A stretch of 64,000 nucleotides of DNA from Actinosynnema sp. ALI-1.44 (lineage in GTDB: Bacteria; Actinomycetota; Actinomycetes; Mycobacteriales; Pseudonocardiaceae), in contig NZ_MTQO01000033.1 in NCBI RefSeq assembly GCF_001984155.1, positions 124,001-188,000 on the forward strand, written 5' to 3'. The first letter of the stretch is position 1; every line of letters begins with the position of its first letter. Below are positions 22,074 through 31,269 of this stretch, in pieces. Position numbers and translations under genes: made by a program. A model generated the notes under the pieces. That model was given only the letters and a program-made list of their open reading frames with translations. It did no database searches and was not told where the DNA came from.

Positions 22074-23408
22074 TCAGCCTCGATCGACGAGTGCCTTCTC
22101 GACCTTCGTGGCCATCTCGGTGATTTCCGCGGGAGTGATGACCAGTGGTGGCAGCAGGCGCAGTACGGCGCTGTGGCGACCGCCGCTCTCGATCAGGAGC
22201 CCGTGGTCGAGGCAACGGCGTTTGATGGCCCTGGCCCGGTTTCCGTCGGCGGGCCGGGAACCAAGGGCGTCGGCCGGGCCGTCGGGGTCGACGATCTCCA
22301 TGCCCCACATCAGTCCCCGGCCGCGGATGTCGCCGATCTCCGGGTGCTCGCCTGCGAGCGAGGTCAGTGCCTCCTCGATCAGACGTCCCTTGGCTTCGGC
22401 TTGGTCGGCCAGGCCCTCCGCGGTGATCACGTCCATCGTCGCGGCACCGGCGACCATCGCCACCTGGTTGCCGCGGAACGTGCCCGCGTGCGCGCCGGGC
22501 GTCCACGTGTCGTAGCGGGAGTGGTAGACGAGTACTGCCAGCGGATAGCCACCACCGACCGCTTTGGACAGGAGCACAGCGTCTGGTTCGATGCCCGCGG
22601 CCTCGAACGCGAACATCGTTCCGGTGCGGCCGAGCCCGGTCTGTATCTCGTCGCACACCAGCGGGATATCCAGTGCGGACGTGATTTCCCGCAGGCCACG
22701 CAACCACTCCGGCGGCGCCGGGACGACACCGCCTTCGCCCTGCACCGGCTCCACGATGATCGCGGCCGGTGTGCTGATGCCGCTTTCGGGGTCGGTGAGA
22801 ACCCGTTCGATGTAGCGCAGGCCCACGCGTGCGCCCTCATCGCCACCAATACCGAACGCGCAGCGGTAGCTGTACGGATAGGGCAGGAAGTGCACGTCCG
22901 GCATGAGCGACGCGACGCGGTGCTTGGCGGCCAGGTTGCCGGTGAGACTTAGCGCACCCGATGTCATGCCGTGGTAGGCACCGTGGAACGCCAGCACGGT
23001 ACGCCGGCCTGTCGCCGTCTTGAACAGTTTCACCGCCGCTTCGACGGCGTCCGCTCCGGTCGGTCCGCAGAAGTGCGTTTTCGCGTGTGCCGCGAAGTCC
23101 GGCGGCAACACGCCGTAGAGCGACCGCAGGAACTCGTACTTGGCTGGTGTGGTGAGGTCCAGCGCCTGCTGCACTTGTCCGGAGTCGAGGAATTCCCGCA
23201 CCCGCGCCGCCACGGCGGCATGGTTGTGACCAAGGGCAAGCGTTCCCGCGGCGGACAGGCAGTCCAGGTACTGGCGGCCCTCCGTGTCGGTCAGCCTGGC
23301 CGCGTCGCCTGCCGTGAACACTCGGTCGATCACAGCGGCGTACGTGCGCGCGTTGGATTCCTTGTCCCGTACGAAGGTGTAGACGTCGTCCACAATGGTC
23401 GTGTTCAT
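22074..23408 (-). CDS. Class III aminotransferase, diaminobutyrate-2-oxoglutarate type
   Basis: This 444-residue PLP enzyme has the substrate and cofactor signature of L-2,4-diaminobutyrate (Dab) aminotransferases: FCGPTGADAVEAAVKLFKTA, FHGAYHGMTSGALS, EPVQGEGGVV, CDEIQTGLGRTG and the PLP lysine in LLSKAVGGGYPL. The family makes Dab from aspartate semialdehyde and glutamate, as EctB does in ectoine synthesis. No ectA or ectC is nearby, so Dab is more likely a building block or cyanation/carbamoylation substrate here. Its ATG overlaps the hypF stop by 4 nt, making it the last gene of a four-gene coupled operon. The NRPS A2 code has acidic residues that would suit a diamino acid such as Dab. 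Confidence 0.85.
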   Translation of the reverse strand: MNTTIVDDVYTFVRDKESNARTYAAVIDRVFTAGDAARLTDTEGRQYLDCLSAAGTLALGHNHAAVAARVREFLDSGQVQQALDLTTPAKYEFLRSLYGVLPPDFAAHAKTHFCGPTGADAVEAAVKLFKTATGRRTVLAFHGAYHGMTSGALSLTGNLAAKHRVASLMPDVHFLPYPYSYRCAFGIGGDEGARVGLRYIERVLTDPESGISTPAAIIVEPVQGEGGVVPAPPEWLRGLREITSALDIPLVCDEIQTGLGRTGTMFAFEAAGIEPDAVLLSKAVGGGYPLAVLVYHSRYDTWTPGAHAGTFRGNQVAMVAGAATMDVITAEGLADQAEAKGRLIEEALTSLAGEHPEIGDIRGRGLMWGMEIVDPDGPADALGSRPADGNRARAIKRRCLDHGLLIESGGRHSAVLRLLPPLVITPAEITEMATKVEKALVDRG

Positions 23409-25705
23409 CGGTGGTCCTCACGTGCGAGGCGGGTGTCGGCGACCACGATCTGGCCGAGCGCGATCCCTCCGTCGTTGGCGGGCACCTGGCGGTGGCAGTA
23501 GGCGTCGATCCCGTCCACTGCCAGGCCGGTCAAGCAGTTGATCAGCAGGAACTCGTTCAGGAACACACCGCCGGACAACACGACCTGGCGTACGCCGGTC
23601 GTCTCGGCGATGTGACGGCAGCGGTCGCGGACCATCGTGACGACGGCCGTGTGGAACCGCCTGCTGATCGCCGGCACGGCGACGCCCGTTGCCAGGTCAC
23701 GGGCGATGGCCCTGACCACCGGCCGGGGATCGACTTCGCCATCGGCGAACTCGAACGCGTAACCGGGTTCCAGTGCGAGGTCACGGGCCAGCAGGCCTTC
23801 CAGTTCGATCGGGCCCTGTGCCTCGTATTCGGCTCGCCCGCACAAGCCCACCAGCGCCGCGACACCGTCGAACAGCCTGCCCATGCTGGCCACGGAGGGC
23901 GAGTTCAGTCCGCGTAGTGCCATTGTGGTGAACACGTGCCGTTCATCCGGGGTCAGGGTGGCCAGCGCGGGGAAGGCGTCGACCGCGGCGTCGCCCATGG
24001 CGTCCAGAGCAAGCGCCAGTCCGGTGCGGATCGGCTCCCGCACCGCCTTGTCGCCGCCGATCAGTGGCACGTAACGCAAGTGGGCGACCCGGTCGGCGTC
24101 GGCGTAGTCGCCGAGGAGGAACTCGCCACCCCAGATGGTGTCGTCCGTGCCGTATCCGGCACCGTCGAACACCACGCCGAGTGTCCGGCCGTGCAACTGG
24201 TTCTCCGCCATACAGGCGGCCATATGTGCGTGATGGTGTTGCACGTGCACGATTCGACCGTTCCCGGCTGCACGGACGGAACGGAACTGCGGGTGCAGGT
24301 CGTAGGCGCCGACCTCGGGTGACAGGTCGTACAGCCCGGCGATGTGCTCGGCGGCCTTGCGGTGTGATTCGAAGGTGTCGTCGTTCTTCAGGTCGCCGAT
24401 GTGCTGGCTCAGGTGCACTCTGGTGCCGGACGACAGCGCGACTGTGGTTTTCAGCTCGGCGCCGTAGGCGACCAACGGCGCGATCGGGCGGCCCAGCTCG
24501 ACCGGGTAGGGCGCGTAACCGCGGGCGCGCCGGAAGAAGGTGAGCAGTGGCGACGGCAGTTCCGGGTGCGTCGAGCACCTGACCACCGAGTCGTCGACGC
24601 GGATCTCGATGTCGCGGTCGTGGTAGAGGATCACGTCAGCGATCTCGAACAGTTGCGATAGCGCCTCATCGTTGCGATACGCGATCGGGTAGCCGGAGAT
24701 GTTGCCACTGGTCATGACAAGCGTGTCCAAGCCCGGCTCGTCCAGCAGCAGGTGGTGGTGCGGCGCCGACGGCAGCATCACGCCGAGATTGGGGTTGCGC
24801 GGCGCGATGTTCTCCGGCAGCGAGCCGGGCTGCTTGCGCGCCAACAGGATCGGGCGAGCGGGTGACGCGAGCAGGTCCGCCTCGGCATCGGACAGCACGA
24901 CGAGCCTGTGCGCGGTCGTCATGTCCGCTGCCATCACCGCGAACGGCTTCCAGTCTCGCCTCTTGCGTTTGCGCAGCAACGCAACCGAGTCGGCGTTTGT
25001 GGCGTCCACCGCCAGGTGGAAGCCGCCGACGCTCTTGATCGCCGCGATCTGCCCGGCTGCCAACGCCGAGGCACAGCGGCTCAGCGCGTCGTCGCCCTCG
25101 GCCGTTGCTCCCTCGGCGTCGGCCAGCAGCAACCGCGGCCCGCAATCCGGGCACGCGTTGGGCTGCGCGTGATAACGCCGGTCGGCGGGGTCCACGTACT
25201 CACTGGCGCACTGGTCGCACATCACGAAGCCGGACATCGTGGTGTGCGACCGGTCGTAGGGCAGCGCCTGCACGATGGAGTACCGGGGACCGCAGTTGGT
25301 GCAGTTGATGAACGGATACCGGTGACGCCGGTCGGCCGGATCGCGCAATTCGGCCAGACAGTCCGCGCACACGTGCGTGTCGGTCGGCACCAGGGCGGTC
25401 CGTTCACCACCCTGGTCACTGTGAACGATCGAGAACCCGGCACCGACGTCACCCGGCGGCATCCTGGTCGCCGTGACCTCGTGCACGCGGGCCAGCTCCG
25501 GGGCCTCGCTCGCCAACTCGGCGGCGAACCGTTCCAGCACGGCCAGGGGCCCGCTCGCCTCGATCAACACTCCACCCGGATCGTTGCGAACCCAGCCGGA
25601 CAGGCCGTACCGGCGCGCGTGCCGGTACACGAACGGCCGGTAGCCCACGCCTTGCACGACACCGGTGACCCTGATCTGCCAACGCTGCGTTGCCGTGTCG
25701 TCCAC
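23405..25705 (-). CDS. hypF: HypF-like carbamoyltransferase, full length, outside a hydrogenase locus
   Basis: The 766-residue product has the complete HypF order. An acylphosphatase domain comes first (VTGVVQGVGYRPFVYRHARR). Two zinc-finger blocks follow (CADC, CTNCG, CDQC, CPDCG). A YrdC-like domain comes next (KRKRRDWKPFAVM), then a Kae1-like carbamoyltransferase domain with metal-binding HHHAHMAACMAEN and FDGAGYGTDDTIWGGEF. HypF takes the carbamoyl group of carbamoyl phosphate through carbamoyl-AMP and loads it onto the C-terminal Cys of HypE. GTG 25705 begins 2 nt after the hypE stop, and the stop overlaps the aminotransferase start. No hydrogenase subunit and no hypA, B, C or D lies in the window, so a role in metabolite cyanation or carbamoylation is possible. 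Confidence 0.9.
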   Translation of the reverse strand: MDDTATQRWQIRVTGVVQGVGYRPFVYRHARRYGLSGWVRNDPGGVLIEASGPLAVLERFAAELASEAPELARVHEVTATRMPPGDVGAGFSIVHSDQGGERTALVPTDTHVCADCLAELRDPADRRHRYPFINCTNCGPRYSIVQALPYDRSHTTMSGFVMCDQCASEYVDPADRRYHAQPNACPDCGPRLLLADAEGATAEGDDALSRCASALAAGQIAAIKSVGGFHLAVDATNADSVALLRKRKRRDWKPFAVMAADMTTAHRLVVLSDAEADLLASPARPILLARKQPGSLPENIAPRNPNLGVMLPSAPHHHLLLDEPGLDTLVMTSGNISGYPIAYRNDEALSQLFEIADVILYHDRDIEIRVDDSVVRCSTHPELPSPLLTFFRRARGYAPYPVELGRPIAPLVAYGAELKTTVALSSGTRVHLSQHIGDLKNDDTFESHRKAAEHIAGLYDLSPEVGAYDLHPQFRSVRAAGNGRIVHVQHHHAHMAACMAENQLHGRTLGVVFDGAGYGTDDTIWGGEFLLGDYADADRVAHLRYVPLIGGDKAVREPIRTGLALALDAMGDAAVDAFPALATLTPDERHVFTTMALRGLNSPSVASMGRLFDGVAALVGLCGRAEYEAQGPIELEGLLARDLALEPGYAFEFADGEVDPRPVVRAIARDLATGVAVPAISRRFHTAVVTMVRDRCRHIAETTGVRQVVLSGGVFLNEFLLINCLTGLAVDGIDAYCHRQVPANDGGIALGQIVVADTRLAREDHR

Positions 25706-25707
25706 GG

Positions 25708-26742
25708 TCAGCACAGCCTGGGCAGTTCGGCGCCGACCAGTTCCTCCAGTACCGACTCCCGCCCGTCCCCGTCCCGCAGGAGGACGTCGGTGCCGGGACG
25801 GTCGGTGACAGTGCCGATCACCGCGGCGTTCACGCCGTAGGGATGGTTCCGCAGCGCCGTCAGGACATCGGCCTCCGCGGCCGGGGAGACGAACAGTGCG
25901 AGACACCCTTCGTTGGCGCAGTGGAGCGGGTTGATCCCGAGCATGTCCGCCGCCATCGCGGTCTCCGTCTGGATGGGCAATGCGGGCAGGTCGACGGTGA
26001 CGACACGGCACAGCCGGGTCGCGTACTCGTGCAGCACGGCTGACAGGCCGCCTCGGGTCACGTCCCGCATCGAGCGGACCGATCCCGCGGGCGCCTTGGC
26101 GAAGACGTCGTCGATCAGGCCGTTCAACGGCGCGCAGTCGCTGAGGACGCGCTGTTCGAAGCCGAGACCTTCCCGGATGGACAACAGGTGCACGGTGTGG
26201 TTTCCGATGTGGCCGGACAGGATGACGCTGTCGCCGGGCTGGACGGCGTCCATCCGCAGCGGGTCGCGGCGGAACGCCCCGATACCGGCCGTGTTGACGT
26301 AAAGACCGTCGGCCTCACCGGCGCGCACGACCTTGGTGTCGCCGCCGACGATCAGCACACCGGCCTCGATCGCGGTGTCCCGGATCGACTCCAGCGCCCG
26401 CACCAGCCACTTGATCGGCAGCCCGGTTTCCAGGATCAGGCCCAGTGTCAGGTACATCGGCGTCGCGCCGGACACGGCGAGGTCGTTGACGGTACCGCAG
26501 ACCGCGATCTTGCCGATGTCGCCGTTGCCGAAGAACGGCGGGTCGACGACGAAGCTGTCGGTCGTCATCGCGATCCGGTTGCCCGGCACGGTCAAGGTCG
26601 CGCTGTCCTCCATCTCACCGACATACGCCTCGCCGAGGGTGTCCGCGATGAGCCGCACCAGTTCCTGGCTGAGCGCGGCGCCAGTGCCGTGATCGAGCAG
26701 GACGCGTCCGTCGAGGTCGGTTGCTTTCGCCACGGTGGTCAC
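25708..26742 (-). CDS. hypE: HypE-like carbamoyl dehydratase with C-terminal Cys
   Basis: The 344-residue protein has the HypE/PurM-like ATP-binding core (DSFVVDPPFFGNGDIGKIAV, GTVNDLAVSGATP, GGDTKVV, MRDVTRGG). It ends in LPRLC, close to the canonical PRIC tail whose cysteine is carbamoylated by HypF and then dehydrated by ATP to a thiocyanate. Keeping this terminal Cys argues that the cyanide-forming chemistry is intact. GTG 26742 overlaps the hydrolase stop by 4 nt and hypF follows after 2 nt. In hydrogenase maturation the cyano group passes to HypCD; neither partner is here. Either distant HypCD genes exist elsewhere in the genome or the acceptor is different. Confidence 0.9.
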   Translation of the reverse strand: MTTVAKATDLDGRVLLDHGTGAALSQELVRLIADTLGEAYVGEMEDSATLTVPGNRIAMTTDSFVVDPPFFGNGDIGKIAVCGTVNDLAVSGATPMYLTLGLILETGLPIKWLVRALESIRDTAIEAGVLIVGGDTKVVRAGEADGLYVNTAGIGAFRRDPLRMDAVQPGDSVILSGHIGNHTVHLLSIREGLGFEQRVLSDCAPLNGLIDDVFAKAPAGSVRSMRDVTRGGLSAVLHEYATRLCRVVTVDLPALPIQTETAMAADMLGINPLHCANEGCLALFVSPAAEADVLTALRNHPYGVNAAVIGTVTDRPGTDVLLRDGDGRESVLEELVGAELPRLC

Positions 26743-27341
26743 GGTGTCTTGATCTCGCGACGCGGCAGGACGCCCTGGCTGTCCAGGACGCTCAGGATCT
26801 CCGTCGAGTCGGCCACGGTGGCGCAGTAACCGGCCAGCCACTCCAGCGCTCGGTCGCGATCCTCGGTCCGGGCCGACACCACGCAGTCACGCGGCACCCA
26901 GACGTTGTAGCCACGGAAGAACGCGTCGGCCGCCGTGGTCTGCACGCAGATCTGAGTCTGCATGCCGGTGATCACGACGGTCTCCACGCCGCGTTCCTGC
27001 AACCGCGTGTGCAGGTCCGTCTCGTAGAAGCCGCTGTCCTTGTTCTTCTCCAGCACGACATCCCGCGGATCGAGGAACGCCTCGATGATCTCGGCCCCGC
27101 GCGTTCCCCGCTCGACCGGCAGGTGTCCGTCGTAGCGCTCGGCGTTCGGATCGTCGGGCAGGTTCACCAGTTGGAGGTGCACGACGGAGTGCCCACGACG
27201 GCGCATTTCGGCGAGGAACCGGGTGAAATGCGGTGTCGCCGCGTCGACGGCGGCGATCCGTTCCGGATTCTTCTGCACGAGGTCGTACTGGAGGTCGTTC
27301 GTAAGTACCGCGACTGTGGACACAGGTTGCTCCCCGGTCAT
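26739..27341 (-). CDS. Isochorismatase-like cysteine hydrolase
   Basis: The 200-residue product has the isochorismatase/nicotinamidase fold and its catalytic triad: Asp in TNDLQYD near the N-terminus, Lys in LEKNKDSGFYETDL, and Cys in GMQTQICVQTTA. Members hydrolyse amides, N-carbamoyl groups (as in N-carbamoylsarcosine amidase) or vinyl ethers. It is the promoter-proximal gene of the hydrolase-hypE-hypF-aminotransferase operon, and its stop overlaps the hypE start (GTGA). It could trim or release a carbamoylated product or recycle a by-product. The substrate is not predictable. Confidence 0.85.
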   Translation of the reverse strand: MTGEQPVSTVAVLTNDLQYDLVQKNPERIAAVDAATPHFTRFLAEMRRRGHSVVHLQLVNLPDDPNAERYDGHLPVERGTRGAEIIEAFLDPRDVVLEKNKDSGFYETDLHTRLQERGVETVVITGMQTQICVQTTAADAFFRGYNVWVPRDCVVSARTEDRDRALEWLAGYCATVADSTEILSVLDSQGVLPRREIKTP

Positions 27342-27560
27342 TTCCCCTGGAATTCCAACAGTCGGATGCTAGCCGCCGAAGGTATCTGTCAAACAACTCC
27401 CGACCTGCGGGATGACATGATCACGCCATGTTTCATCCGCTCGGCACGGAAATCTTCCCTCCCCGGCAACGATGTTGCAGGCAATTCCATCGGCGAACTC
27501 CCGGCCAGCTGATATTTTCGCTTTCAAAGGTGTTTCTGCTCAATGGAGGAAATGTACTTC

Positions 27561-30333: not shown

Positions 30334-31269
30334 ATGACCGCGACAGCCAGGCGGTACCACCTGATCTCCCTGGACGATCTCGGTCCCGGTGAGCTGGACC
30401 GCGTGGTGCGGCTCGGCGTGGACTTCGCCGAGCGCCGCACGCACGGCGAGCCGCTCAGCGGCACCGTGGTCGGCGTCTACTTCCGCAAGACCTCCACCCG
30501 GACACGGACCTCCTTCTCCGCCGCCGCTCTGCGGCTGGGCGCCCGGATCATCAGCTTCGGCCCCGACGACCTGCAGGAGAAGACGGGGGAGAGTTCGGCC
30601 GACACCGGCCGGGTCCTGGCCCGGATGCTCGACGCCCTGGTCGCCCGCACCGCCGGCAGCACTGAAGAGTTACGTGCCTGGGCGCGACAGGAGTCGATGT
30701 CCGTCATCAACGCGATGAGCGCGGCCGAGCACCCGACGCAGGCGGTGACGGACCTGATCACCCTGCACCGCCGGTTCGGCGGGGTGACCGGCCGCCGTGT
30801 GCTGTACCTCGGCGAGGGCAACAACACCGCCGCCGCGCTGGCCCTCGGCCTGGCCCGGTTTCCGGGCACGGAGTTGCACCTGCGCACTCCCCAGGGTTAC
30901 GGCCTGGACGGCGACGTACTGGCCAGGAGCCGGGAGTACGCGGCCGAGACCGGTGCGTTCGTCGAGGAGCGGCACGATCTGGACCATCTGCCCGACGGGA
31001 TCGACGCGGTCTACACCACCCGCTGGCAGACGACGGGCACCACGAAACCCGATCCGCACTGGCGGTCGGCGTTCGTGCCTTTTCGCGTGCACTCCGCACT
31101 GTTCGACCGGTACCCGGAGGCTGCTTTCATGCACGACCTTCCCGCGCATCGCGGCGACGAGGTCACCGCCGATGTGCTCGACGGTCCCCGCTCGATCGCG
31201 TTCGACCAGGCGGAGAACAAGGTCTACGCCGCCATGGCGGTGCTGGAGTGGTGCCTGCGGGACGGATAG
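30334..31269 (+). CDS. Ornithine-carbamoyltransferase homologue with altered acceptor loops
   Basis: The 311-residue enzyme keeps the carbamoyl-phosphate site of the OTC family: STRTR (residues 54-58), EKTGESSADT and EHPTQ (His about 133). The acceptor side differs from arginine-pathway OTCs: the HCLP motif reads HDLP (in MHDLPAHRGDEV), and the SMG loop reads WQTTG. The amino acceptor is therefore probably not ornithine. In tuberactinomycin pathways an OTC-like enzyme carbamoylates a 2,3-diaminopropionate residue. With the SbnA/SbnB-like pair encoded downstream, beta-ureidoalanine formation is a reasonable inference. ATG 30334 follows AAGGAG at 7 nt. It is single-gene and divergent from the small helical-protein gene. 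Confidence 0.8.
   Translation: MTATARRYHLISLDDLGPGELDRVVRLGVDFAERRTHGEPLSGTVVGVYFRKTSTRTRTSFSAAALRLGARIISFGPDDLQEKTGESSADTGRVLARMLDALVARTAGSTEELRAWARQESMSVINAMSAAEHPTQAVTDLITLHRRFGGVTGRRVLYLGEGNNTAAALALGLARFPGTELHLRTPQGYGLDGDVLARSREYAAETGAFVEERHDLDHLPDGIDAVYTTRWQTTGTTKPDPHWRSAFVPFRVHSALFDRYPEAAFMHDLPAHRGDEVTADVLDGPRSIAFDQAENKVYAAMAVLEWCLRDG

Follow-up and report, generated by a model that had tools for sequence, protein, structure and literature searches.

Why does Actinosynnema sp. ALI-1.44 carry an intact pair of [NiFe]-hydrogenase maturation proteins, HypE and HypF, outside any hydrogenase locus? The pair lies in a 64,000-nucleotide (nt) stretch of this genome, hereafter the window, in what the sequence indicates to be one tight minus-strand operon of four genes (27341–22074) that also encodes a cysteine hydrolase and an aminotransferase (Table 1). 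The hydrolase stop and the HypE start share 4 nt, HypE and HypF are spaced by 2 nt, and the HypF stop and the aminotransferase start again share 4 nt. Our best reading as a whole, to which we assign a probability of roughly 0.6, is that the operon provides a dedicated donor derived from carbamoyl phosphate for small-molecule synthesis, probably HypE-S-C≡N, with the hydrolase as acceptor or transferase towards amines. That the hydrolase, HypE and HypF, below called the trio, make up a biosynthetic, non-hydrogenase module is very probable from the gene content described here; that this module works at the cyano level seems likely, with less assurance.

Table 1. Genes of the predicted four-gene operon in the window, with lengths in amino acids (aa).
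Product	Length (aa)	Position	Strand	Features
Isochorismatase-fold cysteine hydrolase	200	26739..27341	-	First operon gene; PF00857, 123.8 bits; Asp16-Lys99-Cys132 triad
HypE, carbamoyl dehydratase family	344	25708..26742	-	TIGR02124, 399.9 bits (cut-off 251.6); C-terminus LPRLC
HypF carbamoyltransferase	766	23405..25705	-	TIGR00143, 706.9 bits (cut-off 466.1); acylphosphatase, zinc-finger, YrdC and Kae1-like domains
Class III aminotransferase, diaminobutyrate--2-oxoglutarate type	444	22074..23408	-	Last operon gene; PF00202; TIGR00709

The first-pass annotation of this DNA had seen no hydrogenase and no hypA, hypC or hypD gene with the pair, and had pointed out that a NiFe hydrogenase with hyp genes elsewhere in the genome, lacking its own hypEF, would make this the displaced maturation pair. 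The absence extends to the whole host genome (11.7 Mb in 54 contigs, completeness 100, contamination 4), which gave zero matches to HypD, HypA or the NiFe large subunit (PF00374) with models that do match in control genomes; HypB was not searched for. HypC gave a single match, below the cut-off (27.7 of 28.5 bits), at C46:120843-121007, and this candidate was rejected after being read by eye as the OB domain of a 363-aa RsgA-type GTPase. With no HypD, HypA, genuine HypC or large subunit, no hydrogenase in want of a HypE–HypF pair was found.

Both proteins belong to the same families as the [NiFe]-hydrogenase HypE and HypF, above curated cut-offs, and share their motifs and the terminal cysteine. 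HypF has all four domain types, with the zinc cysteines and the HHxAH site first described for it: the acylphosphatase domain and two zinc-finger stretches are present, the YrdC domain (212–378) stands before the Kae1-like domain (408–750, both Kae1-like subdomains), and the eight zinc-finger cysteines and the HHHAH motif are invariant in an alignment of 11 trio HypFs. HypE likewise ends in the reported cysteine (LPRLC), and the PRLC tail is invariant in an alignment of 11 trio HypEs. So is the PurM-type ATP motif DX4GAXP (D87, G92, A93, P95), and the GDTK and NEG motifs, which are catalytic, are kept in 11/11 aligned members.

The tail, however, sets the trio HypE apart from its hydrogenase counterpart. 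In the portions of the literature available to us, one paper presents PRIC as a feature of every HypE protein that is indispensable for handing cyanide to HypCD (PMC12130793), and another gives the tail motif as PR(I/V)C, with DX4GAXP as the PurM-type ATP motif (PMC4506123); the window HypE and the trio HypEs fit neither form of the tail. We compared 63 trio loci (four duplicates excluded, seven annotated plasmid or Escherichia coli records included), 60 of them with a HypE match, with 31 hydrogenase-type loci, namely 30 hand-picked from the same-family HypE list described below and that of E. coli K-12. The C-terminus was PRLC in 59/59 readable trio HypEs (that of locus L061 was unreadable) and PRIC in 31/31 sampled hydrogenase-type HypEs. 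HypD lay within 2 kb of HypE at 0/60 trio and 31/31 hydrogenase-type loci, and HypC within 3 kb at 0/60 and 30/31; the trio loci had not been selected on the tail or on HypD. HypF was found within 2 kb at 59/60 trio versus 17/31 hydrogenase-type loci. The hydrolase was within 2 kb at 57/60 versus 0/31, an association that is partly ascertainment because most trio loci were found via the hydrolase. Just three columns of the HypE alignment split the two types at the thresholds used, and the tail column does so without exception (51 vs 24 rows, L061 and L100 excluded). The PRLC tail is a diagnostic mark of the trio HypE.

Phylogenetic trees gave the same division, with the trio proteins in clades of their own. 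A single branch separates trio from hydrogenase-type HypE (52 vs 24 rows, 72 of the 76 different; support 97/92), and a quick tree of HypF splits 59 from 20 rows with a Shimodaira–Hasegawa-like approximate likelihood ratio test (SH-aLRT) value of 100; long branches were flagged (L100, E. coli, L119 and others), and the hydrogenase-type rows come from few lineages. The window HypE groups most closely with those of Nocardia alni and Nocardia sp. CNY236.

Two surveys defined the spread of the trio. Among 390 genomes of the window's family searched with HypE at E 1e-30, 180 had a match; among the matches listed, 11 copies in 10 genomes (the window genome twice) were at least 54% identical, and the others at most 50%. 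Seven other genomes of the same genus had no trio-type HypE, three being without a match and four having one match in the hydrogenase range of E-values. Together with the rarity in the family, this suggests gain by transfer, and the operon may have been so acquired. In about 20 kb around each of the ten copies other than the window's, the trio stands side by side in nine; the tenth (L041) has HypE–HypF, with the hydrolase about 10 kb away on the same contig (L085). The hydrolase alignment, run against a single genome for each GTDB species, picked out 120 stretches. A relative is encoded by 49 of them, and at 44 of these 49 loci hydrolase, HypE and HypF are mutually within 2 kb (in frameshifted pieces at L061). 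Five loci depart from this pattern: L085, where the end of HypF is about 10 kb distant, L096 (3.8 kb), L098 (HypF, no HypE seen), L100 (HypE, no HypF seen) and L099 (a 4.5-kb contig with neither). The two surveys overlap at L072, L082, L084 and L086, and L085 is from the genome of L041.

The hosts include Streptomyces, Nocardia, Amycolatopsis, Saccharothrix, Nonomuraea, Paraburkholderia, Photobacterium, Psychromonas, Solirubrobacterales and Cohnella, among others, and belong to Actinomycetota, Pseudomonadota and Bacillota; the trio is also present in 14/5426 E. coli genomes (one locus read). HypD was present in 19 of the 52 distinct trio-locus genomes (57 entries, the genome of L067 not among them) and not found in 33, where absence is weak evidence because several of the latter are drafts or metagenome bins; most of the 52, some of them bins, come without completeness figures. 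The NiFe large subunit scored above its cut-off in 20/52, that is, in the 19 HypD-positive genomes and in G045, where the best match spans 67 positions only, and below it in 12 more. Seventeen of the 19 HypD-positive genomes combine a trio-type HypE (59–77% identical to the query) with a hydrogenase-type HypE (39–49%) that lies no more than about 250 bp from HypD. The other two have a 48% HypE beside HypD plus a 37% copy (G435) and a 39% copy only (G433).

The HypE–HypF pair had initially been described as locked in an operon with both the hydrolase and the aminotransferase, and a survey for this quartet had been proposed. The tight quartet stands and recurs in other genomes, but the conserved unit is the hydrolase–HypE–HypF trio, and the aminotransferase is one of several variable partners. 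Since a diaminobutyrate-type aminotransferase lies within 3 kb of HypE on the same strand at just 20/60 trio loci, some of them frameshifted, it was rejected as the defining partner. Elsewhere the trio is accompanied by NRPS (nonribosomal peptide synthetase) genes, aminosugar genes, ATP-grasp proteins or a HAD phosphatase. The window aminotransferase itself scores 515.6 bits against the TIGR00709 cut-off of 401.6 and only 366.8 against the 552.2 of the ectoine EctB equivalog, and its closest solved chains are diaminobutyrate transaminases. Ratios of non-synonymous to synonymous substitution (dN/dS, NG86) between the window and Nocardia alni were 0.11–0.20 across the four operon genes, at a dS of 1.0–1.4 that is near saturation, and closer pairs from other loci gave 0.03–0.34; these values indicate purifying selection.

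The constant partner is an isochorismatase-fold protein by its PF00857 match, its triad residues and its predicted structure. Cys132 is present in 45/45 aligned trio hydrolases and Asp16 and Lys99 in 44/45 each. An AlphaFold2 model (mean predicted local distance difference test score, pLDDT, 92) retrieved biuret hydrolase as the top Foldseek match (E 8.7e-15, TM 0.80), followed by triuret hydrolase, an uncharacterised isochorismatase-like protein, N-carbamoylsarcosine amidase and maleamate amidases. A profile search of solved chains placed an N-carbamoylsarcosine-amidase-related chain first and also returned RutB, nicotinamidases, maleamate amidases and several uncharacterised chains. The trio hydrolase thus shares fold and Asp-Lys-Cys triad with biuret hydrolase, triuret hydrolase, RutB and N-carbamoylsarcosine amidase, but it is only 22–30% identical to the biuret, triuret and N-carbamoylsarcosine-amidase chains, falls far under the curated cut-offs for biuret hydrolase (58 of 370 bits) and RutB (51 of 378 bits), and differs in being partnered by HypE–HypF. 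Because relatives act on carbamoyl-nitrogen compounds (biuret, triuret and, for the related chain, N-carbamoylsarcosine), we counted these matches for transfer of a carbamoyl or cyano group, and a carbamoyl or cyano carbon would fit as the target of the hydrolase.

Recruitment for small-molecule synthesis, proposed at the outset for the pair, is supported by the biosynthetic settings of its relatives and by the genome searches, which turned up no hydrogenase to be served, with the trio now in place of the quartet as the fixed unit. Clustering of neighbouring genes gave at least four recurring families. Family A, of aminosugar type, has an epimerase, a DegT aminotransferase, a Nudix protein, an inositol-phosphatase-family protein, a sugar transporter and a carbamoyl-phosphate-synthase-large-chain-like protein. 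Family B, the quartet type, combines a haem-oxygenase-like protein (match below cut-off), a GNAT-like protein, the trio, the diaminobutyrate-type aminotransferase and an unknown protein with an MFS transporter, an M20 peptidase, one ATP-grasp protein and another protein with only weak ATP-grasp matches. These last two recur in family C with the trio, an MFS transporter and a diaminobutyrate-decarboxylase-like protein, and family D holds NRPS genes together with a fluorothreonine-transaldolase-like and a gamma-glutamyl-GABA-hydrolase-family protein. Enzymes that form or use amines are found repeatedly near the trio, as diaminobutyrate-type aminotransferases, DegT aminotransferases and the decarboxylase-like protein. 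Small operons of LysR, trio, HAD and MFS genes occur on Citrobacter and Salmonella plasmids.

The host genome itself has a second hydrolase–HypE–HypF cassette on another contig (C48, about 532–536 kb), with 50, 57 and 46% identity to the window hydrolase, HypE and HypF. Its neighbours are DegT aminotransferases, NAD-dependent and dTDP-sugar epimerases, a C-methyltransferase, an aldo/keto reductase, a glycosyltransferase-like gene, an iterative-type polyketide synthase (KS-AT-KR-DH) and a UnbV/ASPIC protein, in a cluster spanning 503–561 kb (L003, L140, L141). UnbV is presumably linked to enediyne clusters. By its gene content this cluster is enediyne-like with aminosugar genes. One genome thus holds two trio modules in different settings.

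Several individual loci deserve mention. Read by eye, the sequences of one quartet cluster (L063:6564-20596) include glutamate-mutase subunits, a luciferase-like monooxygenase and an aspartokinase, the last of which would feed diaminobutyrate. On a Streptomyces clavuligerus plasmid (L144:11649-20261), HypE–HypF and a DUF3865 protein share one strand and face away from genes for the hydrolase, an arginase-family protein, an ATP-grasp protein and an MFS transporter; a guanidino intermediate may be hinted at by the arginase-like gene. In E. coli Z0117EC0005 (L148:7896-14904), a rare chromosomal operon of LysR, hydrolase, HypE, HypF, HAD hydrolase and MFS genes lies beside integrase remnants and tRNA-Asn. 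On Paraburkholderia phymatum pBPHY02 (L143:1-18059), a diaminobutyrate aminotransferase, a GNAT protein and the trio adjoin a hydrogenase locus. Within this stretch the locus encodes both hydrogenase subunits, large and small, and comprises hypA, hypB, a hypC-family gene and a hypF of its own.

For hydrogenase maturation, the accessible text of PMC6022934, PMC6594144 and PMC4506123 describes how HypF converts carbamoyl phosphate to carbamoyl-AMP and then loads the HypE cysteine, and how HypE dehydrates the loaded group to thiocyanate or isothiocyanate. Given the conserved HypF chemistry, the trio HypF would likewise pass carbamoyl phosphate through carbamoyl-AMP to the C-terminal cysteine of HypE, which, its motifs being conserved, would use ATP to dehydrate the carbamoyl group to an enzyme-bound thiocyanate, probably HypE-S-C≡N. 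In the least certain step, the hydrolase would replace HypC/HypD, its Cys132 taking the group from the PRLC tail and handing it to a metabolite amine. For the window operon, this acceptor is probably L-2,4-diaminobutyrate made by the aminotransferase, and the product may be an N-cyano compound, or, once a ring closes or an amine attacks, a guanidine-type compound. The candidate products weighed were N-cyano-diaminobutyrate, cyclic guanidines, aminooxazoline sugars and ureido compounds; nothing computed decides between them. In a wider version the trio would be a general cyanation machine for metabolites, its hydrolase-fold partner moving the HypE cyano group to amines to give cyanamides, guanidines, cyclic isoureas or nitriles across several unrelated natural-product classes, from enediynes and nonribosomal peptides to the operon in some E. 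coli; our estimate here is evenly balanced.

Several points, besides the ascertainment and the draft genomes mentioned above, weigh against a cyano donor handed on by the hydrolase. The substrates, product and activity of the trio are predictions. The hydrolase at L091 (L091:10001-10585), which adjoins full-length HypE and HypF, keeps Cys132 and is the one without Asp16 and Lys99, so its role may be something other than plain hydrolysis, or the copy may be decaying. Hydrolase matches are not confined to carbamoyl-nitrogen hydrolases; they include maleamate amidases, nicotinamidases and uncharacterised members, and the protein could act later in the pathway or as a proofreader. Trio-type HypE is rare in the window's family (10/390 genomes, among the matches listed). 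Streptomyces quartet loci carry further genes without counterpart in the window operon, and the GNAT-like protein of Nocardia alni had no match elsewhere in the window's genome in a search that, lacking a positive control, shows nothing. Finally, transfer at the carbamoyl level would need no dehydratase.

This last point leads to the alternative that HypF loads HypE and the hydrolase-type protein moves the carbamoyl group itself to an amine, giving a ureido compound, with HypE dehydration vestigial or regulatory. The carbamoyl thioester is the end point of HypF chemistry, and enzymes of N-carbamoyl compounds are among the hydrolase matches. Direct transfer from carbamoyl phosphate, however, takes one protein, as established for other carbamoyltransferases, which makes keeping HypE costly, and the DX4GAXP, GDTK and NEG motifs all persist. 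The retention of HypE suggests that the nitrile oxidation level is needed, and we consider the carbamoyl-level donor unlikely.

Two further possibilities are improbable to a similar degree. Cyanide might be delivered to a metal site in some enzyme that is not a NiFe hydrogenase, iron cyanation being the use of HypE thiocyanate described in the accessible literature; yet neither HypD nor HypC accompanies any trio HypE at the distances given above, the partner that stays constant has an amidohydrolase fold, and the neighbouring genes belong to metabolite pathways. Or the trio might release a tiny product such as cyanide, cyanate or thiocyanate, which could serve as a toxin or take up nitrogen as a sink: the hydrolase could free the group, and the small operons of E. 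coli, Citrobacter and Salmonella hold little beyond the trio, a HAD phosphatase and an MFS transporter, but the recurrent, differing biosynthetic partners and aminotransferases would be left unexplained. Genuine family members though HypE and HypF are, a displaced pair maturing a NiFe hydrogenase elsewhere in the genome is highly improbable and was rejected on the whole-genome searches and the separate HypE and HypF clades, to which the second HypE beside HypD in 17/19 HypD-positive genomes adds. A role in tailoring ribosomally synthesized and post-translationally modified peptides, suggested in the available part of PMC7794033 (2020) for one hypE/hypF cluster with an ATP-grasp ligase, has a similarly slight chance, for although two cluster families have ATP-grasp-type proteins alongside the trio, other contexts hold NRPS genes, aminosugar genes or almost nothing else, and the interval from the window hydrolase to the divergent gene at 27543 contains no gene call of 60 aa or longer, shorter frames not having been searched for precursors.

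The cluster of PMC7794033 is also the nearest precedent for a biosynthetic HypE–HypF pair. It resembles the trio in having hypE and hypF homologues but no further hyp genes; these homologues adjoin an ATP-grasp ligase in a candidate ribosomal-peptide cluster, and its authors inferred a novel function. It differs in being one cluster, treated in a few sentences; isochorismatase is absent from the main text, and the accessible passages name neither the trio, nor the PRLC tail, nor the spread over cluster types. A description of the trio was not found in the open-access (Creative Commons-licensed PMC) literature; subscription papers and preprints were outside this scope, and prior work may exist. 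The O-carbamoyltransferases TobZ, CmcH and NovN are of another kind: as far as the sources available to us go, TobZ has its Kae1-like domain before the YrdC-like one and no HypE partner is described for these enzymes, whereas the window HypF has YrdC before Kae1 and so falls outside the TobZ/CmcH type.

To our knowledge, HypE–HypF have no part in the routes by which bacteria are known to make guanidines and nitriles. If the donor reading is true, an enzyme-bound carbamoyl or cyano group from carbamoyl phosphate would be an added C–N building block for natural-product chemistry, the PRLC tail together with the hydrolase would be a sequence handle to mine for such compounds, and the hydrogenase maturation pathway would have been split and reused. 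The trio also bears on annotation, since the annotated records examined label its genes as hydrogenase expression/formation protein and carbamoyltransferase HypF, yet HypD was not found in 33/52 genomes.

Some further genes in and beyond the window are of note. A gene of the ornithine/aspartate-carbamoyltransferase family at 30334–31269 (plus strand), 3 kb upstream of the hydrolase, scores under the ornithine carbamoyltransferase cut-offs. Completion of a Streptomyces-type cluster elsewhere in the genome found only a partial 65% match to the unknown 221-aa protein, on C47 amid unrelated genes. The window NRPS genes (38–62 kb) are unsupported as part of the module, the quartet being its own operon with other genes intervening. 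They belong to a separate plus-strand cluster (38324–61400) with homocitrate-synthase-like, aconitase, isopropylmalate-dehydrogenase-like and aminotransferase genes, two NRPS genes, an MFS exporter, and a PALP and ornithine-cyclodeaminase-type pair, which we take to resemble diaminopropionate synthesis.

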